A stretch of DNA of 31,351 nucleotides. Origin: a virus. Below the pieces are notes generated by a model. That model saw only the letters and a list, made by a program, of their open reading frames with translations. It did not search any database and was not told the DNA's origin. Every line of letters starts with the position of its first letter. Position 1 is the stretch's first letter. The stretch covers positions 1 to 31,351 of IMG/VR virus record IMGVR_UViG_3300025122_000091. One strand, written 5' to 3'. Positions 3 to 13,450 of this stretch are shown in pieces. A program made the translations under genes and the position numbers.

Positions 3-1427
3 TTAATGGAAATCGGTACGAGCCGTATTCGCGCCTTACCTTTGGGAGACGGTGAAAAACTTCGGGGGTTTCGTTTTCATAGAATTATTATTGACGAGTT
101 TGCGCTCATGCCTGAAAGAATTTATAACGAAGTTATTGTTCCATTTTTGTCTGTAGTTACCAACCCAACGCAACGTGACGATTTAGATAAACTTGAAACC
201 CAGCTGATAGAGGAAGGTCGCATGGAAGAACACGAAAGACACATATGGCCCGGCAACAAATTAATTGCACTTTCTTCGGCTTCTTATAAATTTGAGTATC
301 TTTATAAACTGTATCAGCAATTTGAGTTTAATATTACACGTGAAGAACAAAAGGATGGTGCGTCTAGGTGCATTATGCACTTTTCATATGATTGCGCCCC
401 TCAGCAGTTATACGATCAAAATTTACTCAACCAAGCCAAATCCACAATGAGCCAATCTCAGTTTGAGAGAGAGTTTGGGGCTACATTCACAGATGATAGC
501 GCTGGATACTTCAAGACAAGTAAAATGGCCCTTTGCACTGTGCCGGACGGAGAACTACCCTCTATTGAAGTCAAAGGGGGGATTGACTCTGAATATATAT
601 TAGCCTTTGACCCGTCGTGGTCCCAAACGGAAAGCTCTGATGATTTTGCAATACAAATATTAAAATTAAACGAAGAGCAACAAAGAGCTACGTTGGTTCA
701 CAGTTATGCCTTGGCGGGCACATCTTTAAAGCATCATATTAGATATTTTTTATTCTGCTTGGAGAATTTTAATATTGTGGCTATATGCGGCGACTACAAT
801 GGTGGGGTACAGTTTTTACAGGCGTGCAATGAAAGTGAAGCTTTTAAACAAAAAGAAATCAAACTAAAGCAAATAGAAGTGCCTTTCGATAAACCTGAGG
901 AGTATCAGGAGAACCTGCGCCAGTATAAACAGCAATACAACAAAGGAGACAACAAGCACGTCATCCTAAGAAAACCTACGAGCAGCTGGATACGCCAAGC
1001 AAACGAATTACTACAAGCCAACTTTGATCACCGTCGGTTACTTTTTGCCAGTCAAGCTATTGATGATCAATATACAGCGCAAAAGAGCAAAATGATACCT
1101 ATCGAGGAATTAAAGTTCTTGCGCACCTCGGAATACGATAAGCAAAACAAAGGGGCTAGAATGATCGATTTTATCGAACATCAAGCCGACATGATGAACA
1201 TGACAAAAAACGAATGCGCCCTAATACAAATCACCACCACCGCACAAGGCACTCAAACTTTTGATTTACCTTCTAATCTAAGGAGGCAGACGGGCCCCGA
1301 TAAAGCCCGAAAAGACTCCTATTCAGCTTTGGTCTTAGCTAACTGGATGACAAAAATCTATTTTGATTCGCAAAAACAACCCAAATCGACTATAATAGAA
1401 ACATTCGAACCAATGTTCGTAAACTAA
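3..1427 (+). CDS. terL: Terminase large subunit (5' end cut by window)
   Basis: ATP-driven DNA-packaging motor and nuclease that docks on the portal. The frame is open to the left edge, so the N-terminal part with the Walker A loop lies outside the window; the ATG at 6 is probably internal. Residues are numbered from that ATG. A Walker B strand with catalytic acids (IIIDEF, D30-E31) is followed by a C-terminal RNase H-like nuclease. Its acidic residues are D202 (AFDPSWS), D263 (GDYNGG) and a late acidic pair D388/D395 (MIDFIEHQAD), the usual order in large terminases. The position directly before the portal fits. The gene ends in a short AT-rich gap that holds a small hairpin and a promoter-like element for the portal gene. 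The family call is firm; the packaging type (cos, pac or other) cannot be judged from this fragment. Confidence 0.93.
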   Translation, partial: LMEIGTSRIRALPLGDGEKLRGFRFHRIIIDEFALMPERIYNEVIVPFLSVVTNPTQRDDLDKLETQLIEEGRMEEHERHIWPGNKLIALSSASYKFEYLYKLYQQFEFNITREEQKDGASRCIMHFSYDCAPQQLYDQNLLNQAKSTMSQSQFEREFGATFTDDSAGYFKTSKMALCTVPDGELPSIEVKGGIDSEYILAFDPSWSQTESSDDFAIQILKLNEEQQRATLVHSYALAGTSLKHHIRYFLFCLENFNIVAICGDYNGGVQFLQACNESEAFKQKEIKLKQIEVPFDKPEEYQENLRQYKQQYNKGDNKHVILRKPTSSWIRQANELLQANFDHRRLLFASQAIDDQYTAQKSKMIPIEELKFLRTSEYDKQNKGARMIDFIEHQADMMNMTKNECALIQITTTAQGTQTFDLPSNLRRQTGPDKARKDSYSALVLANWMTKIYFDSQKQPKSTIIETFEPMFVN

Positions 1428-1432
1428 CTTTT

Positions 1433-1453
1433 TGACTTTTGAAAGTCACTTTT
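1433..1453 (+). terminator. Weak hairpin after terL
   Basis: TGACTT at 1433-1438 and AAGTCA at 1443-1448 form a 6-bp stem with a 4-nt loop, followed by CTTTT. The stem is short and AT-rich, so it could be a weak terminator separating terL from the portal promoter, or it could be chance. Confidence 0.35.
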
Positions 1454-1462
1454 AATTAAATC

Positions 1463-1472
1463 AGTGTAAAAT
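1463..1472 (+). promoter_or_regulatory. Candidate late promoter element (AGTGTAAAAT) before portal
   Basis: AGTGTAAAAT reads as GTG plus a -10-like TAAAAT at 1467-1472. Only 5 nt separate it from the portal ATG at 1478, so a transcript starting about 7 nt downstream of the -10 would have essentially no leader. There is no Shine-Dalgarno site before this ATG. The same element recurs before five other genes in the window. Confidence 0.5.
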
Positions 1473-1477
1473 TTAAC

Positions 1478-3505
1478 ATGGCCACGCGGAAATATACAAA
1501 AAGATCAGACTATTGGAAAAAGTTTGAGAAAAACTTTCAGTATCCCAACAATCCTTACGAAAGCCTCGCTGGAAAGGAGGATTGTGAACCCCAGCTACTG
1601 GGAGATTCTTTTTACGATTATACGTCAGAAGCGTACAACCGTAACTCTAACCCTATGGGGGGCGGCAGCGGGTCTACTGATCGACGTAGAAATCAAATCG
1701 CTATCAATCCGAAACTTTATGCGTACAACAATATTCGGTCGGGGATGCTCCCTTATGAGTATGCGTTCGACGGGGTTAATGTTAGGGATGCTATTGAGTT
1801 GTGCCAAAAAGCATATTGTAATGTAGCTATTTTTCGCAACTCTATTGACATGATGGCTGATTTTGCCAACTCTCCTCTTTATCTAGAGGGGGGGAACGAA
1901 ACGTCTAGACGGTTTATTAATTCGTGGTTTAAAAAAATAGGGGTTTGGGGGTTGAAGGACCAATTTTTTAGAGAGTATTATAGAAGTGGTAATATTTTTC
2001 TTTTTACTGTAGATGGAAAATTTAAAGCTGACGAGTTTGCGAAAATTAGAAATTTGGGACTTGTGGCTCAAACAAATAAGATTCCTATTAAATACATTCT
2101 GTTAAATCCCTTTGATGTGGTCGCCCAAAGAACGACGTCGTTTGATGTGCGCTTTTTTTCTAAAATACTCAGCGAATACGAAATCGAGAGATTGAAGAAT
2201 CCCAAGAACGATGCTGATAGGGAGTTGTATAACGCTTTGCCTTCAAACATTAAAAAGCGCATTCGGGAAAATGCTTGGACCCCGTCGGGGATGATGATTG
2301 TTTTGGATCCAGCTAAATTAAGATTCGCTTTCTACAAAAAACAAGACTACGAGCCTTTTGGCGTCCCCTTTGGCTTTGCGGTACTTGATGATATTAATTT
2401 CAAGATGGAGATGAAAAAAATTGATCAAGCTATTTGTCGTACAGTGGAAAATGTAGTGTTAATGATTACGATGGGAACAACTCCAGATAAGGGGGGCATT
2501 AACCCACGTAACGTGCGAGCTATGCAGTCTTTGTTTACCAATCAGAGCGTGGGGCGTGTATTAGTCAGTGATTATACCACAAAAGCAGATTTCATTATCC
2601 CGGATCTCCAAAAGGTAATTGGTCCATCCAAGTATGAGATAGTGAACCAAGATATTAAAGAAGGTCTTCAGAATGTTATACTTGGAGAAGAAAAGTTCGC
2701 GAATGCTACGATTAAGGCCCAGTTATTTTTGCAACGGCTCCGAGAGTCGCGAGAGGCTTTTCTAAATGAGTTTTTACAGCCGGAAATAAATCAAATTTGC
2801 AAGAATTTTGGCTTTAGGAAGTCACCTAAGGCGCATTTTGAAGACATCGATATGAAAGATGAAAACCAAGTCCAGCGCGTTATCACGCGCATGATGGAGC
2901 TGGGCATTTTACCTCCGGAAGAAGGGATGAAGGTTATCGACACGGGAGTCTTTCCTTCTGAGAGAGAGCTAGAAACTGCCCAAGAGAAATTTTTAGCGGA
3001 TCGAAAAAAGGGATGGTATAATCCTATGGTGGGAGGGGTGCCGGTCTTCGAAGAATCCGAAGAAGTGGAATTAGAGGAAATTAAACACCCGCGCAGCATG
3101 AAAATGATGGAGGAACAAAAGACCAAAACCCCCAAATCGCCGGGTCGCCCACTAGGATCCAAGGCACGCATCAAGAAAACCTACGCGGTCGATACCATCA
3201 AGGAAGTTATTGACGCCACTACCAAGTTTCATGCGGATCTAACAATCGAAGCTAAGAAGGTTTTCAAAAAGAAACGGTTAAGCAAAGCCCAAAAGAATGT
3301 TTTAGAAAAGGTTTGTGAGCTTGTTGTTTCGGCGTGTGATAGGGCCGATTGGAAGAAAACGGGCGTCAATTGCCTGAAAAACAGCCAACAGCTTTTACAA
3401 CTCAAGACCTTGAGAGGGGTAGCGGATATTAGCGTAGAGCATTCGTTAGACGAATATGCGTCAGCGATTTTATATCACAGCTTGAAGAATTCACCAAAAG
3501 ATTAA
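1478..3505 (+). CDS. Portal protein
   Basis: Dodecameric ring at the capsid vertex through which DNA enters and leaves; it binds the terminase and later the neck proteins. The 675-aa product lies directly after terL and before a protease/scaffold gene, the standard place for a portal. The region around residues 105-185 (CQKAYCNVAIFRNSIDMMA, then FREYYRSGNIFLF) is typical of portal clip/wing segments. The body around residues 270-450 is mixed alpha/beta. The C-terminal part (about 515-675) is charged and lysine-rich, with predicted helices (KKVFKKKRLSKAQKN) beyond the usual portal core. It may be an extension facing the capsid interior. No Shine-Dalgarno site precedes the ATG; a promoter-like element ends 5 nt upstream. 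The call rests on order and sequence character, without a search. Confidence 0.85.
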   Translation: MATRKYTKRSDYWKKFEKNFQYPNNPYESLAGKEDCEPQLLGDSFYDYTSEAYNRNSNPMGGGSGSTDRRRNQIAINPKLYAYNNIRSGMLPYEYAFDGVNVRDAIELCQKAYCNVAIFRNSIDMMADFANSPLYLEGGNETSRRFINSWFKKIGVWGLKDQFFREYYRSGNIFLFTVDGKFKADEFAKIRNLGLVAQTNKIPIKYILLNPFDVVAQRTTSFDVRFFSKILSEYEIERLKNPKNDADRELYNALPSNIKKRIRENAWTPSGMMIVLDPAKLRFAFYKKQDYEPFGVPFGFAVLDDINFKMEMKKIDQAICRTVENVVLMITMGTTPDKGGINPRNVRAMQSLFTNQSVGRVLVSDYTTKADFIIPDLQKVIGPSKYEIVNQDIKEGLQNVILGEEKFANATIKAQLFLQRLRESREAFLNEFLQPEINQICKNFGFRKSPKAHFEDIDMKDENQVQRVITRMMELGILPPEEGMKVIDTGVFPSERELETAQEKFLADRKKGWYNPMVGGVPVFEESEEVELEEIKHPRSMKMMEEQKTKTPKSPGRPLGSKARIKKTYAVDTIKEVIDATTKFHADLTIEAKKVFKKKRLSKAQKNVLEKVCELVVSACDRADWKKTGVNCLKNSQQLLQLKTLRGVADISVEHSLDEYASAILYHSLKNSPKD

Positions 3506-3508
3506 AAA

Positions 3509-3518
3509 AGTGTAACAT
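3509..3518 (+). promoter_or_regulatory. Candidate late promoter element (AGTGTAACAT) before protease/scaffold
   Basis: AGTGTAACAT, with a -10-like TAACAT at 3513-3518, lies in the 20-nt gap after the portal stop. It is 7 nt from the ATG at 3526. The only SD-like bases (AAGG) lie next to the ATG, too close to work. It matches the recurrent GTG-TAWANT element. Confidence 0.45.
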
Positions 3519-3525
3519 ACAAGGT

Positions 3526-5103
3526 ATGAGTGGCCCCTACAGATTTAAAACGGAGTTTAACTTCGAAGTTTTCGCAACAGATGATTTAGAAGAAGATTTA
3601 AGTATCAGCGTCGCTTCTCTGGATAATTTAAAACCCTTGATCCCAAAGGGTATAAATTTGGATCGCAATATTGATTTGGTGGGAGCTGCTTTTAATGCAG
3701 CTATTGTTAATAGATTCAACAGAAACGGCGATGGAATTAATTCAGCTACCGCAAAAGACCTTGTGGATTACTTTGTCCACAAGCCTACGAACATCGAACA
3801 CAAGAAAAACAAGGTGGTGGGGCATATCGTAAATGCAGCATTTACTGATATGGAAAATGAAAAAATTCTCAATACCCGTAAACTTGAAGATAAGGTAGAT
3901 CCTTTTTATATTTCGCTCGCAGCCGTAATCTACAAGACTGTGAACCCCGAGTTTGCTGAGCTGTTATTAAAGGCTAGTGACCCGAACGATGTGGATTATA
4001 ATAAAGTTGCAGCAAGCTGGGAGCTTGGTTTTAATGATTATAATATTGCAGTTGGCTCTCAGAACTTGAGCGAAGCCGAGATTATCACCGATCCTCAGAA
4101 AATTAAAGAATTTGAAAAATACTTGCGAGCTTTTGACGGAAATGGTACCTTAGAGGACGGAACCCCCGTTTATCGTTTGGTGGCCGGAGAAGTCTTTCCG
4201 TTAGGTATTGGCTTTACGACCAAACCTGCGGCAGACGTACAAGGAATCGCCATTCAAGAGGGTTTGGAGCTCGAATCAGACAAACAAGAGGCTTCTGTCC
4301 TAAAAAGCGATTTAAGAAAAATTAAAAATAATATTTTAAAAATTTCCCAAAACGAAGAAATTAATGTAAAAAAGGGTAACAGTTTTAAAACTATGGACAC
4401 AAAAGAATTAACAACAGAGTTCGAAAAGATCCTCGATTCTAGGTTAGGCAAAAAGTCCGAGTATACGCAAGAGTCTGTAGCTAACATGGCAACCCATATT
4501 ATGGATAAGATCCGTGAGAAGGATGCTGAGTGGAAGCTAGAGAAAGAAGAGGCCGAAAATGAGAAGGCCGAAGCGGTTGCTCGCACTGAGGAAGCCAAAG
4601 CTAATATTGAGGACTTTAAGAAGCAGCTCGAAGAGGCTCAAGAAAAGATATCCTCTTTAGAAGCTACTATCACTTCTGCTAAGGCAGAGGAGTTGTTCAA
4701 CAGCAGAATGGAAAACATCGATTCCCACTACGACTTGGATGATAGCGATCGCGCTGTCCTTGCCAAGGAGGTAGCTGTGCTCGAGTCTTCGGAGGCTGCT
4801 TTTGAAAGCTATCAGCAAAAACTTGGGGTCATCCTTAAACATAAGGGTAAAGCCTACAAGGAAGAGCAGGAAGCGGCCTTTCAGACGAAGGTAGAAGAAG
4901 AGCTCCAAAAGCGTTTAGCCACCTTTGACGAAGTAAAAGCTTCCGAAAAGGAAGAGGCAACAGTTGAAGACTTGGTCGAGAACGTTGAAGTTCCCGAAGA
5001 GTCTGCACTTGTAAACAACAATGAAGCTTCTTCGAAGGAAGAGTCTCTTAGGGACAAATTCGTAAAGGCTTTTAACCCTGAAACAGTTTCAGTAACTTAT
5101 TAA
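3526..5103 (+). CDS. Prohead protease-scaffold fusion protein
   Basis: Probable capsid maturation protease joined to an internal scaffold in one 525-aa chain. The N-terminal 250 residues look like a prohead serine protease. A conserved His segment (NIEHKKNKVVGHIV, H92 and H100) is followed by YISLAAVIYK (S130), ASWELGF (S164-E166) and a closing PLGIGFTTKPA segment seen in prohead protease/XkdF-like proteins. Which Ser is the nucleophile is not settled. The C-terminal half is acidic and helical, with a strong coiled coil around residues 330-385 (rich in E, K and A), as in scaffolds. An in-frame ATG at 4393 (M290) starts the scaffold part and could yield a separate scaffold, as in lambda C/Nu3, but its upstream AAAGGG is 16 nt away. 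The gene lies between portal and capsid genes, as expected. Confidence 0.75.
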   Translation: MSGPYRFKTEFNFEVFATDDLEEDLSISVASLDNLKPLIPKGINLDRNIDLVGAAFNAAIVNRFNRNGDGINSATAKDLVDYFVHKPTNIEHKKNKVVGHIVNAAFTDMENEKILNTRKLEDKVDPFYISLAAVIYKTVNPEFAELLLKASDPNDVDYNKVAASWELGFNDYNIAVGSQNLSEAEIITDPQKIKEFEKYLRAFDGNGTLEDGTPVYRLVAGEVFPLGIGFTTKPAADVQGIAIQEGLELESDKQEASVLKSDLRKIKNNILKISQNEEINVKKGNSFKTMDTKELTTEFEKILDSRLGKKSEYTQESVANMATHIMDKIREKDAEWKLEKEEAENEKAEAVARTEEAKANIEDFKKQLEEAQEKISSLEATITSAKAEELFNSRMENIDSHYDLDDSDRAVLAKEVAVLESSEAAFESYQQKLGVILKHKGKAYKEEQEAAFQTKVEEELQKRLATFDEVKASEKEEATVEDLVENVEVPEESALVNNNEASSKEESLRDKFVKAFNPETVSVTY

Positions 5104-5109
5104 AATATT

Positions 5110-5778
5110 ATGGCATTAAGACTATATCCATTCCGGCAATACAGTGATCACGATGTGATCAACCTGTTTGCCAACCAGATTGTCGACGACAATCCATCAA
5201 CCGATGGGAACGGTAGTGCAGGTGTGCTCGTAAAGGTGTTGAGTGGTAATCTGAAGAAAGATGTGGTTGAGTTCGCGTCTTCCTCTAGTTATCTTGGTAA
5301 GACGGACTATCCCTTTTTGGGAGCCGACAAATACCCTCAAGTCCCTCTACGGTGTATCGCCGCCACAACCGGAGCTCCCGTATTAGGCGTTACGCTTAAT
5401 CAGACTATAGCAAACGATGAGAACGGTGAGAAGCTCATCTATAATCCGATTAAAGCTGACGAGTTACAAGCGGTTCTGAGCGGTCAAGCCGTTCCGGTCG
5501 CCACACGAGGTTTATTTACCTTTTCGAACAGTGCGTATACAGAAAGCGCTTCATTTATTCCGGGTGGTTTAGCTGTTGTTAGTTCAACAGCGGGTACCAT
5601 GGACGGAGTTAGTGCAGATCTTTTGAATTTGCAGCGTATAGTTGGGCATATTGTTGCCACAGGCAACAGAACCTCTCAAAATGGGCAGACTGATGAGTTT
5701 GCAGGCACGGGTACGGCACAGTACGCGATGGTTCACATTGATGCTGCCGCATCATGGGGCGTATCAGACAATGGCTAA
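5110..5778 (+). CDS. Putative capsid decoration/stabilising protein
   Basis: A 222-aa protein placed 6 nt after the protease-scaffold gene and 26 nt before the capsid gene, the position held by decoration proteins such as lambda gpD. It is soluble and beta-rich, with many small residues (G, A, S, T, V). It has no signal peptide and no membrane segment. The segments GVLVKVLSG, APVLGVTLNQT, QAVPVATRGLFTFS and GGLAVVSS resemble the strand-turn pattern of phage head decoration proteins, in which a value is stored, reset and capped by a small beta-barrel. I do not recognise a specific family, and the call rests mainly on position and composition. The alternative is another minor head protein. No clear Shine-Dalgarno site precedes the ATG; it is probably co-transcribed with its upstream neighbour. 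Confidence 0.5.
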   Translation: MALRLYPFRQYSDHDVINLFANQIVDDNPSTDGNGSAGVLVKVLSGNLKKDVVEFASSSSYLGKTDYPFLGADKYPQVPLRCIAATTGAPVLGVTLNQTIANDENGEKLIYNPIKADELQAVLSGQAVPVATRGLFTFSNSAYTESASFIPGGLAVVSSTAGTMDGVSADLLNLQRIVGHIVATGNRTSQNGQTDEFAGTGTAQYAMVHIDAAASWGVSDNG

Positions 5779-5787
5779 TAGCAACGC

Positions 5788-5793
5788 AAAGGA
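5788..5793 (+). promoter_or_regulatory. Ribosome binding site deciding the capsid start
   Basis: AAAGGA lies 11 nt before the ATG at 5805. It supports 5805 over an in-frame ATG at 5754 that would overlap the end of the upstream gene. Good SD sites are rare in this window, so this is a useful marker for the capsid start. Confidence 0.55.
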
Positions 5794-5804
5794 ATTATAA
5801 TAAA

Positions 5805-6950
5805 ATGAAAATTACATTAAAAAGAACGCCTGAGCAAGTCGAGCTTATTAAGGCTATGGCCTCTAAGAATCGCGATACCGCTTATGCTGCGCAAGTTGCT
5901 TTAGCGGAGTTTATTGGTCCCGTTGTGTCGGAAGTTATTAATAACGCTCCGACCCTCAGCAACCTATTCACCCCGCTTCAGTACAACGCTGATGACAACC
6001 CTTCTCTTCCGTTAGATCTGTATTATAACGTTTTTGACGAAGATTATATCAAGGTTTATAGCCAGTCTGTTGCTGGAGGTCTTCCTACCAATATGGTACA
6101 GCCTACAGCTTCAGAGCTCAAGTTCACAACCTACACCTTGGACAGTGCGGTTGCTTTCGACAGAAAGTATGCCTCTCGTTCACGGTTGGACGTGATCGGA
6201 AAAACATTCACACGAGTGGCCCAAGAGGTGCTTTTGAAACAGGAGAGAACTTCTTCTAACCTGTTGATGACAGCTCTTGCTGAGGCGACAAACGGAAAAG
6301 CTGCGTTTTCGGCTTTAAACCGTAACGTTTTCCGTACAGCCACAGCTGATGTTTTCCAGATGGATGATATCAACAAGCTGATCACCAAGGCCAAGCGTGT
6401 TAATGCTTCTTGGTCCGGTGGTACTCCTACGGGAGCTCGTCATGGGATTACTGATCTTCTGGTTTCTCCAGAGGTTGTAGAACAGATTCGTTCTATCGCC
6501 TATCAGCCCATGAACACGCGTGCGGTTCCGGATACTACGGAATCTACGGTCCTTGGTGCGCCCGAGAATGTGCGTAATGAGGTTTGGAAGTCGAGTGGTA
6601 TTACCGAATTCTTCGGTATCAATATCATGGAAATCCTTGAACTTGGTGACGGCAAGCGTTACAACACAGTGTTTGACACTGTGGCGGGCACTACCGATTA
6701 TCTTAATAACGGTTCCACAAGCGCTTCGAGTCAGTTTGCTGGAGCTACGGAACAGATCATAGTTGGTTTGGATCGCAGTCGTGATGCGCTGGTGCGTGCC
6801 ATTGCTGTGGATTCGGACACGGGTTCTGAGTTCAACTTAACGGCGGACGATCAGTTCTCCATTAGGCAACAGCGAATCGGTTACTATGGTGCTCTTGAAG
6901 AGGGCCGCATGGTTCTTGACAACCGCGCTTTGGTTGGTTTGATTATGTAA
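5805..6950 (+). CDS. Major capsid protein (HK97-like fold expected)
   Basis: Main shell protein, 381 aa from the chosen ATG, in the size range of HK97-fold capsid proteins. The N-terminal helical arm (QVELIKAMASKNRDTAYAAQ) is followed by a mixed alpha/beta body. LLVSPEVVEQIRSIAY is the kind of spine-helix/P-domain segment commonly seen in these proteins, and the chain ends in a compact beta-rich A-domain-like region. I chose the start at 5805 because an AAAGGA site precedes it and an earlier in-frame ATG would overlap the upstream gene. A strong terminator follows at 6976-7007, which would isolate this highly expressed gene from what follows. No insertion domain is visible. The order portal, protease/scaffold, decoration, capsid supports the call. 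Confidence 0.85.
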   Translation: MKITLKRTPEQVELIKAMASKNRDTAYAAQVALAEFIGPVVSEVINNAPTLSNLFTPLQYNADDNPSLPLDLYYNVFDEDYIKVYSQSVAGGLPTNMVQPTASELKFTTYTLDSAVAFDRKYASRSRLDVIGKTFTRVAQEVLLKQERTSSNLLMTALAEATNGKAAFSALNRNVFRTATADVFQMDDINKLITKAKRVNASWSGGTPTGARHGITDLLVSPEVVEQIRSIAYQPMNTRAVPDTTESTVLGAPENVRNEVWKSSGITEFFGINIMEILELGDGKRYNTVFDTVAGTTDYLNNGSTSASSQFAGATEQIIVGLDRSRDALVRAIAVDSDTGSEFNLTADDQFSIRQQRIGYYGALEEGRMVLDNRALVGLIM

Positions 6951-6973
6951 TCAGACCTTTCCTATAAAAATTC

Positions 6974-7007
6974 AGCTCCACCCCGTTTTGGGGTGGAGTT
7001 TTTTTTT
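6974..7007 (+). terminator. Strong intrinsic terminator after capsid gene
   Basis: CTCCACCCC (6976-6984) pairs perfectly with GGGGTGGAG (6990-6998) around a 5-nt loop and is followed by nine Ts. It is a classic rho-independent terminator that closes the head transcription unit just downstream of the capsid stop. Confidence 0.92.
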
Positions 7008-7017
7008 GAAAAAATCC

Positions 7018-7027
7018 TGTGTATACT
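7018..7027 (+). promoter_or_regulatory. Candidate late promoter element (TGTGTATACT) before SAP-like gene
   Basis: GTG plus TATACT (7022-7027) lies directly after the capsid terminator and 10 nt before the ATG at 7038, where a new promoter is needed. TTGAAA at 7006-7011 is only 10 bp from the -10, too close for a normal sigma70 promoter. No Shine-Dalgarno site is present. Confidence 0.5.
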
Positions 7028-7037
7028 ATCATTATAT

Positions 7038-7487
7038 ATGGCAGCAAAAAGAAAAAGTACCAAAAAGAAGGCGACGAAGAAGGTCGCACCTAGAAAAACA
7101 GCCACGGCATCCACCAAGAAAAAGAAGCTCGAACTTAGTGAATTGCGCTATTCTAGTGGAAAACTGGACGACAAGACCGTCGCTCACATTGAAGAGCTTG
7201 AGGATATTTTAGGGGTTCATGAGGTTAATCATTTTGGAACCAATGATGATGTAATTTTTGAAAAAAATCTAAAAGAAATGACTTTGGCGGACCTTCAAAA
7301 TCTCTGCGGTAAAGTTAGGTTATTTGCCAGCGGCAACACTAGAGAGCTGAAAGAAAAGCTCCGAAAAGAGTTTACTAGAGTAACCAAAGGTAATAAAAGC
7401 ATTGTGCTCCAGCAGGAGGCGTCAGTCTGTAATCCGGATCATCCCAACCATGCAGCAGCCAAAAAGATTCTAAGCGAAGGTTTTTAA
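7038..7487 (+). CDS. Lysine-rich protein with SAP-like DNA-binding motif
   Basis: A 149-aa protein. The first ~35 residues are a lysine/threonine/alanine-rich tail (KRKSTKKKATKK) resembling histone H1-like or basic DNA-packing tails. Around residues 76-112, MTLADLQNLCGKVRLFASGN followed by RELKEKLRKEF fits the helix-turn-helix pattern of a SAP motif (leucine-rich helix, Gly turn, then basic helix), which in other proteins binds DNA. The C-terminus contains CNPDHPNHAAAKKIL. I chose ATG 7038 because an upstream in-frame ATG at 6993 lies inside the terminator hairpin. The gene sits between capsid and connector genes and has its own terminator-promoter boundary. It could be a minor head protein touching packaged DNA, or a neck component. 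The SAP assignment is by eye and needs a profile check. Confidence 0.6.
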   Translation: MAAKRKSTKKKATKKVAPRKTATASTKKKKLELSELRYSSGKLDDKTVAHIEELEDILGVHEVNHFGTNDDVIFEKNLKEMTLADLQNLCGKVRLFASGNTRELKEKLRKEFTRVTKGNKSIVLQQEASVCNPDHPNHAAAKKILSEGF

Positions 7488-7496
7488 GTGTAAATT
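7487..7496 (+). promoter_or_regulatory. Candidate late promoter element (AGTGTAAATT)
   Basis: AGTGTAAATT, with a -10-like TAAATT at 7491-7496, starts on the last base of the upstream stop codon and ends 8 nt before the ATG at 7505. No good Shine-Dalgarno site is present. It is a member of the recurrent GTG-TAWANT set. Confidence 0.45.
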
Positions 7497-7504
7497 AGGT
7501 TACC

Positions 7505-8056
7505 ATGGCATGGAACTCTAATCGACAACAGACCCCTTATTTTGTCAGCACGATTGCAACGGGCATCTATCGCGACGAATTTGATAGCGATACCGGCTAT
7601 CAAGCGCTATCTGCTATTTCTGGGTGGCTGGAAAACAATGTTGGGCTTTTAAATACTGAAATTTATACCTCTTTTTCTGGCTCTGGGATGACCGACGGAG
7701 CAAATTTCGGGGATACAGCCTTAGTACCCACAGGGGGTTTCAAATTCGAAGAGGCCGAAATATTCAAGCAGGTCTATCTAGTAGAATACTACAAAAAGAA
7801 AACCAGAAGTGTACTTAAAAACATTGATAGTTCGGTTGATTTTATTACGTTGAGGGACGGCGACTCTATGATAACCCGTACCAATAAAAACGAAATAGCC
7901 AAGACATACAGAGGGCTCGCTAATGACGCACAAGAGCACCTCAAGCTACTTACAGCCAAATATAATATCTATGGGGCCACCCCTCTTCAAGTGGCCGGTA
8001 CAGACGCTCCTGCGGGCCCTACGGGGACTGCTGCTAATTATGTTTATTGGCCTTAA
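7505..8056 (+). CDS. Putative head-tail connector/adaptor
   Basis: A 183-aa soluble protein of unknown family. It lies after the capsid unit and immediately before a bidirectional terminator, facing the inverted neck operon. The N-terminal region (residues ~15-65) contains DEFDSDTGYQALSAISGWLENNVGLLN, a compact helical segment. The middle has a tyrosine- and lysine-rich helix (EIFKQVYLVEYYKKKTRSVLK) and a later helix (RGLANDAQEHLKLLTAKY). The tail is Ala/Gly/Pro/Thr-rich. Small, mainly helical proteins after the capsid gene are often portal adaptors that bind the bottom of the portal ring, and this fits, but I do not recognise the sequence. The functional call is inference from position and helical character. 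Confidence 0.45.
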   Translation: MAWNSNRQQTPYFVSTIATGIYRDEFDSDTGYQALSAISGWLENNVGLLNTEIYTSFSGSGMTDGANFGDTALVPTGGFKFEEAEIFKQVYLVEYYKKKTRSVLKNIDSSVDFITLRDGDSMITRTNKNEIAKTYRGLANDAQEHLKLLTAKYNIYGATPLQVAGTDAPAGPTGTAANYVYWP

Positions 8057-8083
8057 GCCAAACAATTAGACTCAAAGCCAACA

Positions 8084-8115
8084 AAAAGCCGCCAAGGAAA
8101 ACCTTGGCGGCTTTT
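8084..8115. terminator. Bidirectional intrinsic terminator between convergent genes
   Basis: A perfect 14-bp inverted repeat (AAAAGCCGCCAAGG at 8084-8097 and its complement at 8102-8115) with a 4-A loop. A-run and T-run flanks make it work on both strands. It separates the forward connector gene from the reverse tail-tube operon. Confidence 0.93.
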
Positions 8116-8135
8116 GAACTATTAAGAACTAGGCT

Positions 8136-9653
8136 TTAATAAGGATTGGTTGATACAGAGTCGCCCTTATAAGCGGAGTCATCATCCTTTACTTGTCCCA
8201 AGGGCCAGTAAGGCAATGTGCGGAAACGAGGGTAAGAACCATCCATAAACAAACCATTGCTTACGTCATTTGCGCCACCAATTTGAGCGGTAAATGCCAT
8301 ATCAACGGACTCGTTATCTCCTATTGCGTTGGTGAAGGTTTCGCTGTCTAACCTCGCGTTTTTGACCGTAAATGACAATTTGGTTTTACCTGAAGAGGTA
8401 CATGTAGAATCTGCCAACCTCAACGTGAAGTCGTGTGTTTGTTTGGAACAAAGATCAGAAAAGAGATTCTTTTTCTGAAGCTCAGAAACAATTGCAGATA
8501 CCGTACAGCTGATATCCACAGGAAGATCAACCACACGAGCATAACCAAAGGTACTGCCCAACCGTTGCAAAACGGTACGACTCAAAGGCACACTAATAGT
8601 GAAGCTTTGAACATGAGCTGCGCCATCACCATCCATATCGGTCAAACCGATATAACTGCCGGAGGAACCCATGGTAAAGGTCAAATCACCGGGCCTCAAG
8701 GCCGCTACACCAGCGTCACCCGAGACATTAAAGGATTTACCTTTGGTTGTCCATCCTTGTGCTCCATATTGTGCACCTGTATTTCCAACACCTGTTTGGA
8801 AAACGTAACGATTTGTGCCGCTGTTACCCGCCAAGGTTACACCCGGAACTCCTTCGTCGTTGATGATGTTCCCTCCTACAGCACCGAGCTGCTGAGTAGT
8901 GGTGTTTACAAATGTTGCCGCAGCACCAGAAAGCCTGTCGTCAACCTTAATGTTGAAGCCTTCCACTGTAACACTGGCCGTTGGAATTGATCCTACCGAC
9001 GCTTCAACAGTGTAATCGCTTACAAAACCATTACCAATGGCAACCACATCAAAATCAGTGACGCCACCAATATTTTTTTGCCCCTCTACATCCTCACCAT
9101 CTGGAACAACCGTAATGAAGTAATTGTTTCCTTGAGGGTCATTCAGTACACCTGAAAGGGCTGAGTATCCGGATATACAACCGTCTCCACTCCAATAGGC
9201 AGTGGTAGCATTAGGACGCCCCATGCTAGCGTTATTAGGGGTAGAAGTGGGCACATTAAAGCCCATCTTTCTTTCGTTTCCACCGTCAGTAAGATAGTAG
9301 TTAAAATCCAATCCTACAGTAGGCGATTCCATTACGATGGAATCCAGTCGGGCCAACTGGCCGAATTCGTTAATATCTTGCCTATTAATTGTAAAATTAA
9401 AGTTAGCAGATTGAATTCTTTCCAGAGGCTCTAGAAGGCTTCTATTGTAAATGCCGCTATTGTAAACACGAGCCGGGGAACCTGACCATTTAAGGTTATA
9501 GGGTTCGTCTCGGCTTAGTACCATGCCGCTACCATGACCGCTCCCAAGCGGCAGACCTCCGAAAGCGCCGGTTTGGATATGGTAGCCTGAGGAGCTAGGG
9601 GCTATAAACAGCGCCTGACTCTGATAAATAATTCTGTTTCTTGATGTAGCCAT
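8136..9653 (-). CDS. Major tail tube protein
   Basis: Probable tube subunit that polymerises around the tape measure into a hollow tail. It is 505 aa, longer than lambda gpV-type tubes, so it probably carries extra surface domains. The segment around residues 75-120 (ERIQSANFNFTINRQDIN, then SPTVGLDFNYYLTDG) has the alternating strand pattern of tail-tube beta-sandwiches. A second module near residues 209-232 (GFVSDYTVEASVGSIPTASV) has a counterpart in the tube-like gene at 22176-23150. The C-terminal half (residues ~340-460) holds further strands, including FTLRLADST and FTVKNARLDS. It is the last gene of the reverse operon and ends at a strong bidirectional terminator. No SD site is visible; the AT-rich 56-nt gap upstream contains TAAAAT 3 nt from the ATG. 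Confidence 0.72.
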   Translation of the reverse strand: MATSRNRIIYQSQALFIAPSSSGYHIQTGAFGGLPLGSGHGSGMVLSRDEPYNLKWSGSPARVYNSGIYNRSLLEPLERIQSANFNFTINRQDINEFGQLARLDSIVMESPTVGLDFNYYLTDGGNERKMGFNVPTSTPNNASMGRPNATTAYWSGDGCISGYSALSGVLNDPQGNNYFITVVPDGEDVEGQKNIGGVTDFDVVAIGNGFVSDYTVEASVGSIPTASVTVEGFNIKVDDRLSGAAATFVNTTTQQLGAVGGNIINDEGVPGVTLAGNSGTNRYVFQTGVGNTGAQYGAQGWTTKGKSFNVSGDAGVAALRPGDLTFTMGSSGSYIGLTDMDGDGAAHVQSFTISVPLSRTVLQRLGSTFGYARVVDLPVDISCTVSAIVSELQKKNLFSDLCSKQTHDFTLRLADSTCTSSGKTKLSFTVKNARLDSETFTNAIGDNESVDMAFTAQIGGANDVSNGLFMDGSYPRFRTLPYWPLGQVKDDDSAYKGDSVSTNPY

Positions 9654-9709
9654 ACTATTTTAAAGTTTTATTAAAAATAGTTACAATCAAAACAGGCGTT
9701 TGAGAACTT

Positions 9710-10567
9710 TTATTGTCGTGGATTACGGTATTTGTTGATTTCAAAGTCCATAAAACCCACATATAAAGGAAGGGGTATAAACTTGTCCATTCGGTCAGAA
9801 ATCTTAGAAACTGTAGTGTTTTGTATAAAGCAAATGTCTGTCGGATAGTTGTTTGCTACATTATTATAATCGTAGCCGGTGGAATAGGAGCTTTTCACGT
9901 CTCCAAACTCGTCCAAAGGGGCTCCGGTATAAGGAACGTTTTTAAAAACCTCTTTAGAGGAGTCTGCAAAAATAGACAAAACTCCATCCAGTTGGTAGGT
10001 ATTTTCCGCGAAAGCGACAGCGGTTATTTGGGTGATGGTATTATCCGTTCCCCCAAAGGCAAACGGTTCGTTGGTGGTGGTTGTCGTTGAAAGAAAAACC
10101 GCAGGTACCACTTCTTCGTATGGTTGTACATAGGTTAATTCGCGAGTATATCTTGCGTTGAGCTTATATTTTCCTTCAATAATTAGGCTTTCTTCGTTTT
10201 GGTTAGAAACATAGGTGTTGAAATTTTTAACAGAATAGCCCCCGCTAATGTTGGCGGACGTAGAGACGCTGTCGTCAAACAATACCCGTCCGTTTTCGTA
10301 GTCCACTATCATGCCACTTTCTCCTGCGGCAAGGGCTCCATCATCGCCACTTATAGAAGGAACAGCTTCGGCACTGGCGATGCTTTTGTCGTATACCCAT
10401 TGTTTATAGGGGGAACCAAATACGGTTTTATTTGTGATTTGTTCGTCTGCGTAATTATAAAAATCTGTGCCTTGAAAGTTTTTATAGGCATCCCCTTTTA
10501 AGAGTAAATAATTGTCAAACCACATATAAAAACTGGTTAAGAGTCTATGTTGATAGGTTGGTTTCAT
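9710..10567 (-). CDS. Tail terminator/neck candidate
   Basis: A 285-aa protein whose ATG overlaps the upstream stop by 4 nt (ATGA), so translation is coupled within the reverse operon. It lies directly before the tail tube gene, the usual place for the tail-terminator protein that caps the tube at the neck. The N-terminal helix (HRLLTSFYMWFDNYLL) is amphipathic. A middle beta-rich section (MIVDYENGRVLFDDSVS, then GGYSVKNFNTYVSN) reads as strand-turn-strand, and the C-terminal segment (IPLPLYVGFMDFEINKYR) is also beta-rich. It is longer than typical tail terminators (about 130-180 aa), so it may be a fused or elaborated version. I do not recognise a named family. The call rests on operon order. 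Confidence 0.42.
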   Translation of the reverse strand: MKPTYQHRLLTSFYMWFDNYLLLKGDAYKNFQGTDFYNYADEQITNKTVFGSPYKQWVYDKSIASAEAVPSISGDDGALAAGESGMIVDYENGRVLFDDSVSTSANISGGYSVKNFNTYVSNQNEESLIIEGKYKLNARYTRELTYVQPYEEVVPAVFLSTTTTTNEPFAFGGTDNTITQITAVAFAENTYQLDGVLSIFADSSKEVFKNVPYTGAPLDEFGDVKSSYSTGYDYNNVANNYPTDICFIQNTTVSKISDRMDKFIPLPLYVGFMDFEINKYRNPRQ

Positions 10568-11172
10568 GATAATGAGCTTTTTTCGATCTTCCTTATTTCT
10601 TTATAATATTCATTAAGGAGAGAACTTAAATAAGTTGTGTTGTTAAATTTTCCGGCCCTTAGTTTGGATTTTACTTGTACTCCGCGCCCGGAACGTGAGC
10701 GTGCGGATGCAATATTGAGATATCTGCCCAATCCCCCTATTCCCGTTTCGATGCCCTTGGCCCAGCTTCGTCCTGTTGCCCAAGGAAGGGGGGTCATTCT
10801 AAAGATTTCTTTGGTGGTCGGAACGGTTATATTGATAATGGTTTTGGTTTTGGTATGTTGGTATCTTACTTCGTATTTGTGGAGCATCGTGCGAATGGGG
10901 TCTAGCGGCCTATCGCCTGATTGAAAGCCAATGTAGCTAAAAAGGTTTCCAACCCCGTTAAGAGTTCCGCTAACGTTGGTGGATGATGATCCTCCTGCTA
11001 TTTCAACGGTTACAGGGTGTTGTTCAAAGTTTTCTAAAAGTTTTTGTTGGGCGCTTTTTATTTTTCCTTCCACCGCCCTTTTAAGCCCCTTCGTGTACGA
11101 AGCTTCGCGAGGGAGGGCTTTTTGCACCTCTTTTAAGGTTTTGCGACTGATTACGGATTTGCTTCGGGCCAT
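10564..11172 (-). CDS. Neck/tail-completion protein (HK97 gp10-like position)
   Basis: A 202-aa basic protein, second in the reverse operon. It begins 1 nt after the stop of the head-closure gene and overlaps the next gene by 4 nt. The N-terminus is helical and basic (KTLKEVQKALPREASYTK). A central section contains VTVEIAGGSSSTNVSG and GNLFSYIGFQSGDRPL, a beta segment pattern I associate with neck proteins of marine phages. It is followed by a strand pair ending in INITVPTTKEIFRM. The C-terminal third is basic and ends in a helix (LSSLLNEYYKEIRKIEK). Tail-completion proteins of the HK97 gp10 type occupy this place between head-closure and tail terminator. The call is by order and character, not by a clear family match. 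Confidence 0.48.
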   Translation of the reverse strand: MARSKSVISRKTLKEVQKALPREASYTKGLKRAVEGKIKSAQQKLLENFEQHPVTVEIAGGSSSTNVSGTLNGVGNLFSYIGFQSGDRPLDPIRTMLHKYEVRYQHTKTKTIINITVPTTKEIFRMTPLPWATGRSWAKGIETGIGGLGRYLNIASARSRSGRGVQVKSKLRAGKFNNTTYLSSLLNEYYKEIRKIEKSSLS

Positions 11173-11173
11173 A

Positions 11174-11626
11174 TTAGCTGACGGATTTTAAGAAAATAGT
11201 GTAAAATTTCACGCCAAAAACCCCGTGGGCCCTAAAGTCACTGTTAATTGCAAACTTTTGGCTATCAAACTCTATACGCTTTGCCTGTGAAACCGTAGAG
11301 TAATCGGCGGCCTTAAAGATCATCCTTACTTGGCCCTCGGGAAGAAATATTTTGAGCTGCGAGTCTGACTGGCTACTGGCAAAAAAATCGCTGGTATAAT
11401 CTCTACCATATAGAATTCGGGCGGAAACTGTTGACGATTGTGGTGTATAACTAATAGGTGTTGTGGCGCCAGCATTGCCATAAATAGTATTGTAGGACTG
11501 GCTTGGCGTCGAAACGGTGATAACAGCGTCTTTGTAGACGCTGACGTCCCGGGCAAAGGTGTCATGTAGGTCGTTCATTGCGTTATTGCAGGTGGTTTTT
11601 TCTGCATTTGTTAAAAGACTTGCCAT
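11174..11626 (-). CDS. Head-closure (stopper)-like protein
   Basis: A 150-aa protein, first gene of the reverse operon. I chose the ATG at 11626. A GTG at 11641 is in frame upstream, but it falls inside the promoter-like AGTGTATATT element, so it is unlikely to be the start. The N-terminal helix (NAMNDLHDTFARDVSVYKDA) leads into a beta-rich body (ITVSTP, SSTVSARILYGRD, LKIFLPEGQVRMIF), as in small head-closure proteins that plug the portal. The last strand contains GVKFYTIFLKSV. Its length suits the family, and it precedes the tail-completion gene as expected. The ATG would be about the first transcribed base of the proposed promoter. No SD site is visible. Confidence 0.55.
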   Translation of the reverse strand: MASLLTNAEKTTCNNAMNDLHDTFARDVSVYKDAVITVSTPSQSYNTIYGNAGATTPISYTPQSSTVSARILYGRDYTSDFFASSQSDSQLKIFLPEGQVRMIFKAADYSTVSQAKRIEFDSQKFAINSDFRAHGVFGVKFYTIFLKSVS

Positions 11627-11632
11627 ACCATT

Positions 11633-11642
11633 AATATACACT
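11633..11642 (-). promoter_or_regulatory. Candidate late promoter of the inverted neck/tube operon
   Basis: Read on the minus strand, AGTGTATATT has a -10-like TATATT at 11638-11633. It ends 6 nt before the ATG at 11626, so the predicted transcript start falls on the ATG. It uses the same element as the forward genes, so both strands share one promoter class. Confidence 0.5.
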
Positions 11643-11693
11643 TTTTAATTTTTTTTTAGAAAAAACTTATTTTAAAAGCATAATTTATAAGAT

Positions 11694-12443
11694 ATGAAGT
11701 CTATTTATAGTTTCAAAGTTGATTTAGTTAAGGAAGTTGAACAGAAAACCAAAGAAAAGCGAAAAAACAAGGAAACCGGCAAACAAGAAGAGGTGGAGGT
11801 TTCCAAGAAAGTCAAGAAAAAGATTCCTCACGAAATAACCCTTAAGCGACCCGGACGGCGACAATTGGAGGAGGCGGACATGGAGTATTCCATTGAGATC
11901 AGCCGTTGCGTTAAGAAGGGGATTCTCACAAAAGCCATGTTGGCAAAAAAATATTCCGATACAGGAGGGATTCTTACGGAAAAAGACGCGCAGCGACTGG
12001 TAGATCTTTATACTGATCTTTCCGAGCTAGAGCTTGAAATGTCCAAGAGAGGGGCGACCCCTAACGCTAAAAAGGAAGATCCTAAGGCGAAGGGATTGGG
12101 GGGTAAAATTGCGATGACTCGAAGGGAGATTGTTAATCTGGAATCTTCTTATCAAAGCTTGTTTAATCATACGGCCGACATTAAAGCTCAAAACAGAGTT
12201 ATTTTATGGTATATTGTTCACTTGGCCCACCTTACCCAGCCTGAGGGAAAGGGAGATCCTGTAGCACTTTTTGAGGGGAAAGATTTTGAAGCAAAGGTAG
12301 ATAGCTACTATCAAAAGGATGAAGGTGAAGATGAATTATTTGGGTTAATTCACCGAAAACTTGCGGCTATCGTAAGTTATTGGTACTTTAGTGAAACGCC
12401 CACCCAAGCGGACTTTGACAATATAATCAATGATCTCGACTGA
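11694..12443 (+). CDS. Putative tail assembly chaperone 1
   Basis: A 249-aa charged, mainly helical protein, first of two overlapping genes just before the tape measure, where tail-assembly chaperones sit. The N-terminus is very lysine/glutamate-rich (EVEQKTKEKRKNKETGKQEE). A core (LKRPGRRQLEEADMEYSIEI, then CVKKGILTKAMLAKKY) is typical of phage chaperone-like proteins that read as a substrate-binding helical bundle. The C-terminal third is helical and includes a tyrosine/tryptophan-rich stretch (VSYWYFSE). It starts a forward unit divergent from the inverted operon. No SD site is visible; TAATTT lies 7 nt before the ATG as a possible -10 without the GTG. The next gene overlaps its last 14 nt in another frame. 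The call rests on position and character. Confidence 0.58.
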   Translation: MKSIYSFKVDLVKEVEQKTKEKRKNKETGKQEEVEVSKKVKKKIPHEITLKRPGRRQLEEADMEYSIEISRCVKKGILTKAMLAKKYSDTGGILTEKDAQRLVDLYTDLSELELEMSKRGATPNAKKEDPKAKGLGGKIAMTRREIVNLESSYQSLFNHTADIKAQNRVILWYIVHLAHLTQPEGKGDPVALFEGKDFEAKVDSYYQKDEGEDELFGLIHRKLAAIVSYWYFSETPTQADFDNIINDLD

Positions 12444-13419
12444 TGAGAAAGTCAATTTTAGATATTTATTCAAAGACATTGTCCACGGATTTTCAGAAGT
12501 ACACTTTGAGGGTGTAGCCCTCTACATTAAACACCTTTCTGCTCTAGACCAAGTTGACTTGGAGGAACTAGAGGAGCATTTTGTTACTAAGGCCGTCAAA
12601 AGAGGACTCCCCACCCAAGAGGAAACACTTACGCGCCTCAAGGAAGAGGGGATGTGGACCGCGGCCGACATAGCAGAGCTAACCGAACAAGAAAAATATG
12701 TAGAGAGTTTAAAAAACGCTCGAAAACAGCTTTTTATCAAACACGAAATTGACGACAATATCGAGCAAACCAAAAAAGCACATCTAAAGGTCGTCCAACT
12801 GACAATGGCCAAAGAGGAGCTCATAGGGCAAACCTCTGAAAAATACGCAAAAAGTCGTGTGAGTGATCATTATATTTTAAAATCTTTTTACAAAAACGAG
12901 GCGTTAACAAAACCTACATACTCAGAAGAGGAGATTGACGAGCTGGGCAAAGAGGATCTTTTAAGGATTATACAGAGTTATAATAAAAAGATTTTTGCGT
13001 TCACTGACGAAAACATTCAAACAATAGTATTGCAAGATTTTTATAGTCCTTATTTTCCTTTTTCTGATAATGTGATGAATTTTTACAACAAGCCTCTTTT
13101 TGATCTTTCTCTTAATCAGGTTAAATTAATTGTTTTCACTAGAATGTTTAAAAACATATTTGAAAGTTACCCAAAAATACCTGAAACCATTAAAAAAGAC
13201 CCTTCCAAAATTATCGATTACGTCAATGCACAAGATAAAGCAAAAGATGTTACGTCCAACTTGGATAAAGAGGGAGCTTCCACCATTGTGGGGGCGAAGG
13301 AAGAGGATTATGAATATTTAGGGTACAAGAAAACCTCTTCAGGTGCCTCCCTTTCCCAAAGACTCAAGGAAAAGGGCGGTCGCATGGACATGAAGGATTT
13401 GTTAGAAACAATGACGTAG
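12430..13419 (+). CDS. Putative tail assembly chaperone 2
   Basis: A 329-aa helical, acidic protein that overlaps the upstream gene by 14 nt in the +1 frame and ends 48 nt before the tape measure. In lambda, HK97 and many other phages the pair before the tape measure is made by a programmed frameshift (G and G-T). Here the second frame has its own ATG and I see no slippery heptamer in the overlap, so two separate proteins are more likely. The N-terminus (LFKDIVHGFSEVHFEGVALYIKH) is amphipathic. The region around residues 60-130 (EEGMWTAADIAELTEQEKY) has the W-and-E pattern seen in phage chaperones. The C-terminal ~50 residues are charged and may be an extended tape-measure contact. No signal or membrane segment is present. 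Confidence 0.52.
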   Translation: MISTDEKVNFRYLFKDIVHGFSEVHFEGVALYIKHLSALDQVDLEELEEHFVTKAVKRGLPTQEETLTRLKEEGMWTAADIAELTEQEKYVESLKNARKQLFIKHEIDDNIEQTKKAHLKVVQLTMAKEELIGQTSEKYAKSRVSDHYILKSFYKNEALTKPTYSEEEIDELGKEDLLRIIQSYNKKIFAFTDENIQTIVLQDFYSPYFPFSDNVMNFYNKPLFDLSLNQVKLIVFTRMFKNIFESYPKIPETIKKDPSKIIDYVNAQDKAKDVTSNLDKEGASTIVGAKEEDYEYLGYKKTSSGASLSQRLKEKGGRMDMKDLLETMT

Positions 13420-13440
13420 CGCGAAAAAATATTTGAAAAA

Positions 13441-13450
13441 AGTGTATATT
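13441..13450 (+). promoter_or_regulatory. Candidate late promoter element (AGTGTATATT) before tape measure
   Basis: AGTGTATATT, identical to the element of the inverted operon, ends 17 nt before the tape-measure ATG at 13468. This would give a short leader of about 11 nt without a good SD site. It would drive the long tail-tip unit that has no later promoter of this type. Confidence 0.48.

Follow-up and report, generated by a model that had tools for sequence, protein, structure and literature searches.

Transcription of the late genes of phage T4 depends on gp55, a phage-encoded sigma factor that lacks region 4 and reads promoters consisting only of a -10 element, TATAAATA. The middle and late promoters of the phiEco32 sigma factor gp36, which also has no region 4, consist of a single element, tAATGTAtA, without a -35 box, and transcription starts 6-8 bp downstream of it (PMC8948821). 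In bacteria, a TANNNT box whose first T is located about 12 nt before the start codon is the hallmark of leaderless genes (PMC3160421). Most middle and late mRNAs of the Thermus phage phiYS40 are leaderless (PMC3594737). Here we describe a candidate one-element promoter that abuts start codons in a lineage of uncultured phages and that is probably read by a sigma factor of these phages.

The stretch of DNA analyzed, hereafter the window, is an IMG/VR fragment that has 31,351 bases and comes from a tailed phage. It contains a cut terL, a portal-position gene, capsid and tail genes, and a 2,902-aa gene in the position of a tape-measure protein (TMP) (Table 1). Its gene families were scarcely recognized in profile searches; the portal-position gene gave no family match above threshold, while the full-length terL of a relative matches Terminase_6N and phrog_2. 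The window is part of an uncultured marine phage group with more than 500 relatives in IMG/VR, where the capsid gene has 346 relatives. No tblastn match to the major capsid protein (MCP) was obtained in 50,697 cultured phage records, and the sigma factor described below likewise gave no match in cultured phages.

Table 1. Features of the window discussed in the text. P1-P6, candidate GTGTA promoters.
Feature	Position	Strand	Remarks
terL (large terminase)	3..1427	+	truncated by the left edge of the window
ACTTT/AAAGT half-site array	1427..1452	.	between terL stop and P1; cis element
P1 (AGTGTAAAAT)	1463..1472	+	5 nt to portal ATG at 1478; predicted leaderless
Portal-position gene, 675 aa	1478..3505	+	named from its position in the order terL-portal-MCP
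P2 (AGTGTAACAT)	3509..3518	+	7 nt to ATG at 3526; heads the 3526-5110-MCP unit
Gene between portal and MCP, 525 aa	3526..5103	+	protease/scaffold position; opens the P2 unit
Major capsid protein gene (MCP)	5805..6950	+	phrog_1005, E 0.0043; internal, Shine-Dalgarno site present
Intrinsic terminator, strong	6974..7007	+	closes the P2/MCP unit; P3 lies 11 nt further on
P3 (TGTGTATACT)	7018..7027	+	10 nt to ATG at 7038
149-aa gene	7038..7487	+	predicted to be driven by P3
P4 (AGTGTAAATT)	7487..7496	+	8 nt to ATG at 7505
183-aa gene	7505..8056	+	predicted to be driven by P4
Terminator hairpin	8084..8115	.	between convergent 7505-8056 (+) and 11626-8136 (-); minus-strand score
m11174, 150 aa	11174..11626	-	opens the leftward P5 unit
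P5 (AGTGTATATT)	11633..11642	-	6 nt to ATG at 11626; heads leftward 11626-8136
P6 (AGTGTATATT)	13441..13450	+	17 nt to ATG at 13468; leadered class
TMP, very long gene, 2902 aa	13468..22176	+	tape-measure position, predicted to be driven by P6; tail genes next

The initial annotation of the window had noticed six GTG-TAWANT elements just before start codons and had proposed that they are promoters of leaderless late mRNAs. The coordinates of these elements and their distances to the ATG (5, 7, 10, 8, 6 and 17 nt) are exactly as it had given them. None of the six genes behind them has a well-placed Shine-Dalgarno site and the internal genes starting at 5805, 22176 and 23152 do have one, both as described, and the reported lack of a shared -35 box extends to 340 nonredundant sites, whose flanks contain no -35 information. 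The consensus itself holds in part: its GTG-TA core was retrieved, but the TAWANT portion is loose, and the site at 3509 reads TAACAT, which does not fit. GTGTA occurs 36 times on the two strands of the window, with about 37 occurrences expected from dinucleotide frequencies, and 6 of these 36 precede a gene start by 0-36 nt, versus 0.38 expected (P = 2e-6). The longer form AGTGTAWANT is found 5 times for an expectation of 0.43. An additional perfect AGTGTAAAAT at 11198 (+), antisense to the gene 11174-11626 (minus strand) and located inside its end, stands outside the set. Since genes 11694 and 12430 of the window have no GTGTA element, and only about 11-26% of the genes bear the motif in the largest contigs, other promoters must exist.

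Six sites in A/T-rich gaps could, for the window taken alone, be a product of chance and composition. The relatives refute this explanation, to which we give practically no weight. In 16 contigs (1.07 Mb, 1,060 genes), GTGTA is the top-ranking of all pentamers at positions -14 to -19, with 113 occurrences versus 2.7 expected, whereas the reversed pattern used as control has 0 intergenic occurrences; moreover, orthologous genes keep the box in relatives that are about 50% identical in the portal. A de novo k-mer search upstream of ATG ranked GTGTA-type words at or near the top for the window and two close relatives, and gave the same result for contigs G001, G002, G003, G006, G012, G014 and G016. 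The unbiased evidence for the motif comes from this search and from the pentamer ranking, because the sites of the 340-site logo were chosen by GTGTA and its core is thus fixed by construction. The constant core in the relatives is GTGTA, followed by an A/T-rich tail, and the pattern GTGTAWANT-N5-ATG is present 14 times in phage contigs (reversed control, 0). The initial annotation had made its reading depend on an enrichment of the motif in intergenic regions genome-wide, and such an enrichment is what we found.

The distance of the box from the ATG resembles that of a Shine-Dalgarno sequence, likewise 5-10 nt, and GTGTA could thus be a non-canonical ribosome-binding signal and no promoter at all. 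However, there is a second enrichment 16-36 nt before the start (45 versus 9.6 expected in the 16 contigs, with only 2 at 37-55 nt), where the box often stands alongside a Shine-Dalgarno site. The box also favors the heads of divergent operons (50/154 versus 115/902 for codirectional genes in the same contigs; odds ratio 3.3, P = 1e-8) and does not precede internal genes, for example MCP (0/40 relatives), and the box at 7018 comes after a terminator. We consider a ribosomal signal very improbable.

The gap between GTGTANNNT and the ATG has a sharp edge. Among the 340 nonredundant sites, gaps of 0 to 4 nt account for 14 in all, while 82 sites have a gap of 5 nt, 62 of 6 nt and 38 of 7 nt, the numbers then declining. 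A hard lower edge at 5 nt is expected if the ATG cannot precede the 5' end of the mRNA. With the modal gaps of 5-6 nt, the box has its first T 11-12 nt before the start, as published for the TANNNT boxes of leaderless genes in bacteria (PMC3160421), and the start codons behind sites with gaps of 5-8 nt are ATG in 82 cases, GTG in 6 and TTG in 0. Shine-Dalgarno sites accompany 3% of the sites with gaps of 5-10 nt (7% in shuffled sequence) and 43% of those with gaps of 16-36 nt (10% in shuffled sequence). If transcription started about 6 nt past the motif, the mRNAs would either be leaderless or have leaders long enough to accommodate a Shine-Dalgarno site, and the statistics of spacing and Shine-Dalgarno sites suggest that the 5' ends of the transcripts coincide with the start codon or lie close to it. 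Alternatively, the elements could be promoters of the phage sigma factor whose transcripts carry a leader of 2-12 nt instead of starting with AUG. A discriminator of 5-8 nt is nothing unusual, and a start 6-8 bp past the element, as in phiEco32, would give very short leaders at some sites. Yet spacings of 5 and 6 nt are the most frequent, the edge is at 5, and the frequency of Shine-Dalgarno sites at 5-10 nt is below the shuffled level; such short leaders as the general rule are, in our opinion, quite unlikely.

The two spacing classes are gene-specific. Among nonredundant relatives the box is present before the portal gene in 41/42, before m11174 (P5) in 16/17, before TMP (P6) in 22/22 and before phoH in 33/36. 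Gaps at the portal gene and m11174 are mostly 5-12 nt (5-9 nt for the m11174 promoter), and those at TMP are mostly 13-33 nt, with a Shine-Dalgarno site in 15 of the 22 relatives. P6 belongs to this leadered subclass, and its own site in the window, at 17 nt, has no Shine-Dalgarno sequence. The other elements are less constant: P2 is kept within the close clade and by some of the distant relatives (11/29 nonredundant), P3 is present in 10/30 and P4 in 16/27. No GTGTA was found before g5110 in 36 relatives, and it directly precedes terL in 1/59 and the sigma gene itself in 1/48. P2 can serve 3526-5110-MCP as far as the terminator that closes this unit. The predicted units of P4 (7505-8056) and P5 (leftward, 11626-8136) meet at the hairpin between them, and P6 would serve TMP and the tail genes. 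At the portal promoter, ACTTT/AAAGT half-sites have a mean of 5.0 copies per 85 nt (1.0 in shuffled sequence), and 47/48 relatives have at least 3 copies. The array was found at none of the other promoters examined and is specific to the portal promoter. It is not a part of terL, as in G003 the portal gene is about 36 kb away from terL and the array is still there.

The initial annotation had suggested looking for a sigma-like gene elsewhere in the phage. Such a gene is located just outside the window in 13/13 relatives whose contigs reach that place: a protein of about 237 aa with a Sigma70_r2 domain is encoded in 13 of 18 relative contigs, and the contigs without it (G004, G005, G010, G013 and G018) each end short of its expected place, about 3.9 kb upstream of the portal gene. 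In IMG/VR, this protein is encoded at more than 585 loci. In the relatives its gene lies upstream of terL in one operon, with two genes between them, the order being phoH-g-sigma-g-nuclease-terL with GTGTA at the head. The protein comprises region 2, a Cys4 insert and a region-4-like helix-turn-helix. Region 2 (PF04542) scores above the cut-off in 8 contigs and with E <= 1.4e-4 in 5 more; the match of region 4 to PF08281 is weak (E 0.047). The conserved cysteines (87, 90, 107 and 119) are present in 41-42 of 42 sequences. The protein matches phrog_1740 (RNA polymerase sigma factor) with an E-value of 1.8e-7 over residues 15-234, covering regions 2 and 4. The gp36 protein of phiEco32 belongs to the same PHROG (E 5e-45), and homology to gp36 rests on this shared family; hhalign of the sigma alignment against the single gp36 sequence gave no significant score. 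An AlphaFold model built from 42 sequences (pLDDT 76.9) aligns end to end with ECF sigma factors. The PDB fold matches listed are sigma chains throughout, Mycobacterium tuberculosis SigH being first (probability 1.00) with a moderate Foldseek E-value of 2e-3, and most of the named top matches among viral models are RpoE-like phage sigma factors, including that of phage GAP52. The low global TM-scores presumably reflect a different orientation of the two domains and a poor prediction of the linker. When the sigma alignment was compared with the sequences in the PDB, only chance matches came up. The position near terL could also suggest a small terminase, an identity disfavored by region 2, by the match to a sigma PHROG and by the fold comparisons.

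This phage sigma factor probably reads the GTGTA promoter. The pairing rests on co-occurrence, because among the relatives none was found that clearly lacks both the sigma gene and the motif. Three loci in which no sigma gene was found (L240, L241 and L243) do not provide a clean natural experiment, being fragments or rearranged; in G020 a sigma gene is located elsewhere.

In five genomes the genes for RecA, DnaB and Pol III alpha are grouped in a replication block; in G003 they are split. The box is found in 1 of 56 replication-block genes versus 98 of 601 genes elsewhere (P = 0.0014). A regulon with the head, tail and sigma/terminase operons and without the replication block fits middle or late expression. 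Alternatively, the box could be the -10 region of host housekeeping promoters in a host with wide use of leaderless mRNAs, the phage sigma factor having other targets. The sites of the window do fit the spacing of leaderless TANNNT boxes (PMC3160421). However, the constant core has GTG before the TA, unlike the usual TGn-TATAAT, and the phage replication genes, which would be expected on host promoters, lack the motif. Moreover, GTGTAWANT-N5-ATG shows a mild excess in 59 Verrucomicrobiota genomes (69 versus 43 for the control, with at most 6 per genome) and no excess over the control in 61 Bacteroidota genomes. With counts this close to the control, the motif is no general promoter of those phyla as sampled, and the host-promoter explanation is disfavored because these sampled genomes do not use it widely; we regard it as unlikely. 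In the metagenome-assembled genome (MAG) of the Verrucomicrobiota set that holds a relative of the phage, the sole match to the pattern is on the phage contig. MCP matches in MAGs are uninformative about the host, since they fall in Rhodospirillales, Flavobacteria, Halobacteriovorax, Marinimicrobia, Rickettsiales, Patescibacteria and Verrucomicrobiales. G003 has DUF1501 and PSCyt2/PSD1 genes. The best match of its DUF1501 protein among the sampled Verrucomicrobiota genomes is 52% identical and gives a weak hint at the host.

We therefore retain, as likely, that the GTGTA elements are single-element promoters for an ECF-like phage sigma factor and that they yield leaderless or leadered mRNA according to spacing. 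The leaderless-promoter proposal of the initial annotation is thus supported by motif enrichment, the sigma gene, and the spacing and Shine-Dalgarno statistics. The elements would act as -10-type boxes (GTG-TA with an A/T tail and no -35), read by host RNA polymerase carrying the sigma factor encoded just left of the window in the GTGTA-headed operon. As this operon would itself be under a GTGTA promoter, the sigma factor probably amplifies its own synthesis. Transcription would begin about 6 nt past GTGTANNNT. With the ATG 5-10 nt past the box, the mRNA would have no leader or almost none, and its translation would begin on the AUG at the 5' end; with the ATG about 16-36 nt past it, the mRNA would have a short leader that often includes a Shine-Dalgarno site, as for TMP in many relatives. 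The sequence statistics directly show the motif with its positions and conservation, the two classes of spacing, the sigma gene and its fold, the lack of the box in the replication block and the absence of wide use in the bacteria sampled. We infer the pairing of sigma factor and promoter, the start sites, leaderless translation and the late timing of these genes from sequence comparisons. A broader proposal, which we put forward tentatively and hold slightly less probable than its contrary, is that one phage sigma factor and one box direct two translation programs of late mRNAs, the distance from box to ATG deciding gene by gene and being kept across deep divergence. The portal gene, m11174 and the phoH-sigma-terL operon would then be leaderless and TMP would be Shine-Dalgarno-leadered, in a lineage without cultured member in the collection searched.

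A sequence-only map of transcription is in this way proposed for an abundant uncultured phage lineage, covering its promoter and sigma factor, the heads of its operons and the predicted start sites. The predicted pair would be a new sigma-promoter combination with one-element specificity, and its hundreds of orthologous promoters constitute a natural set on the choice between leaderless and Shine-Dalgarno initiation within one regulon.

Among the systems described so far, T4 gp55 is similar in being a phage sigma factor with a -10-only promoter, but the T4 core TATAAATA was not found, the core here being GTGTA plus A/T. Sigma factors of the ECF type (M. tuberculosis SigH, E. coli sigmaE) appear by predicted fold to have the same sigma2-linker-sigma4 architecture; they differ in that the promoters here have no -35 motif and that the linker contains a Cys4 insert, and no anti-sigma gene was recognized. 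The leaderless mRNAs of phiYS40 come from another phage and host, and the corresponding report describes neither a GTGTA element nor a phage sigma factor (PMC3594737). Leaderless genes of bacteria such as Deinococcus and Actinobacteria (Zheng et al. 2011) share the -10-like box that abuts the start and the absence of a Shine-Dalgarno site, whereas the box described here has an extra GTG, is phage-specific and is probably tied to a phage sigma factor, and a Shine-Dalgarno leadered class coexists on the same promoter. In phiEco32, most of the elements precede genes that have good Shine-Dalgarno sites, at distances of 33-60 nt, whereas here they abut the ATG, and unlike gp36 the sigma factor here has a region-4-like helix-turn-helix and the Cys4 insert. 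With gp36, and with gp47 of phage 7-11, it shares nevertheless its nature as a phage sigma factor of phrog_1740, and the one-element promoter of phiEco32, tAATGTAtA, is strikingly similar to the aGTGTAwA found here.

The gene for the ECF-like phage sigma factor lies, in the relatives, within the terL operon, to the left of the edge of the window. The gene order of this operon (e.g. L110:912-2714, a locus in one relative) is phoH, an unnamed gene, sigma, a second unnamed gene, an ERCC4 nuclease gene and terL. In 33 of 36 relatives the sigma-containing phoH...terL operon is headed by a GTGTA promoter (GTGTA with an A/T-rich tail, shortly before a start codon), and this location suggests that the sigma gene is under positive autoregulation. 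The contigs G004 and G005, which share a source metagenome, both stop about 3.93 kb upstream of the point where portal begins, close to the expected position of the sigma gene. Either the assembly broke off there or the genome physically ends there.

The portal promoter is accompanied by an array of ACTTT/AAAGT half-sites. Upstream of the portal gene, a mean of 5.0 copies per 85 nt was found in 48 nonredundant relatives, versus 1.0 in shuffled sequence, and the remaining GTGTA promoters that were examined had no such array. Clusters of five or more copies occur just once per contig in 9 of 16 contigs, each adjoining the portal gene. In G003, a 122-kb relative, portal and terL are about 36 kb apart, yet the cluster still adjoins portal. 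The array may be an operator, an activator array or a packaging site.

Sequence features located in the window
Feature	Position	Strand	Location
ACTTT/AAAGT half-site array	1427-1452		between terL and the portal promoter
Perfect AGTGTAAAAT	11198-11207	+	antisense, within the end of gene 11174-11626

The perfect AGTGTAAAAT is probably a coding coincidence; words resembling it are found at the equivalent place in some relatives. In the relative G012 (L145-L147), TTGAC.TT and CTTGCAAT words are over-represented upstream of ATG and could perhaps constitute a further promoter class.

The G001-G006 phages carry genes for a bacterial-type DNA polymerase III alpha subunit, DnaB and RecA. G003 also encodes DUF1501 and PSCyt2/PSD1 (DUF1549/DUF1553) proteins (L116:13923-18057), the DUF1501 gene having a GTGTA box 6 nt upstream of its ATG. 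Such cargo is unusual for a phage.
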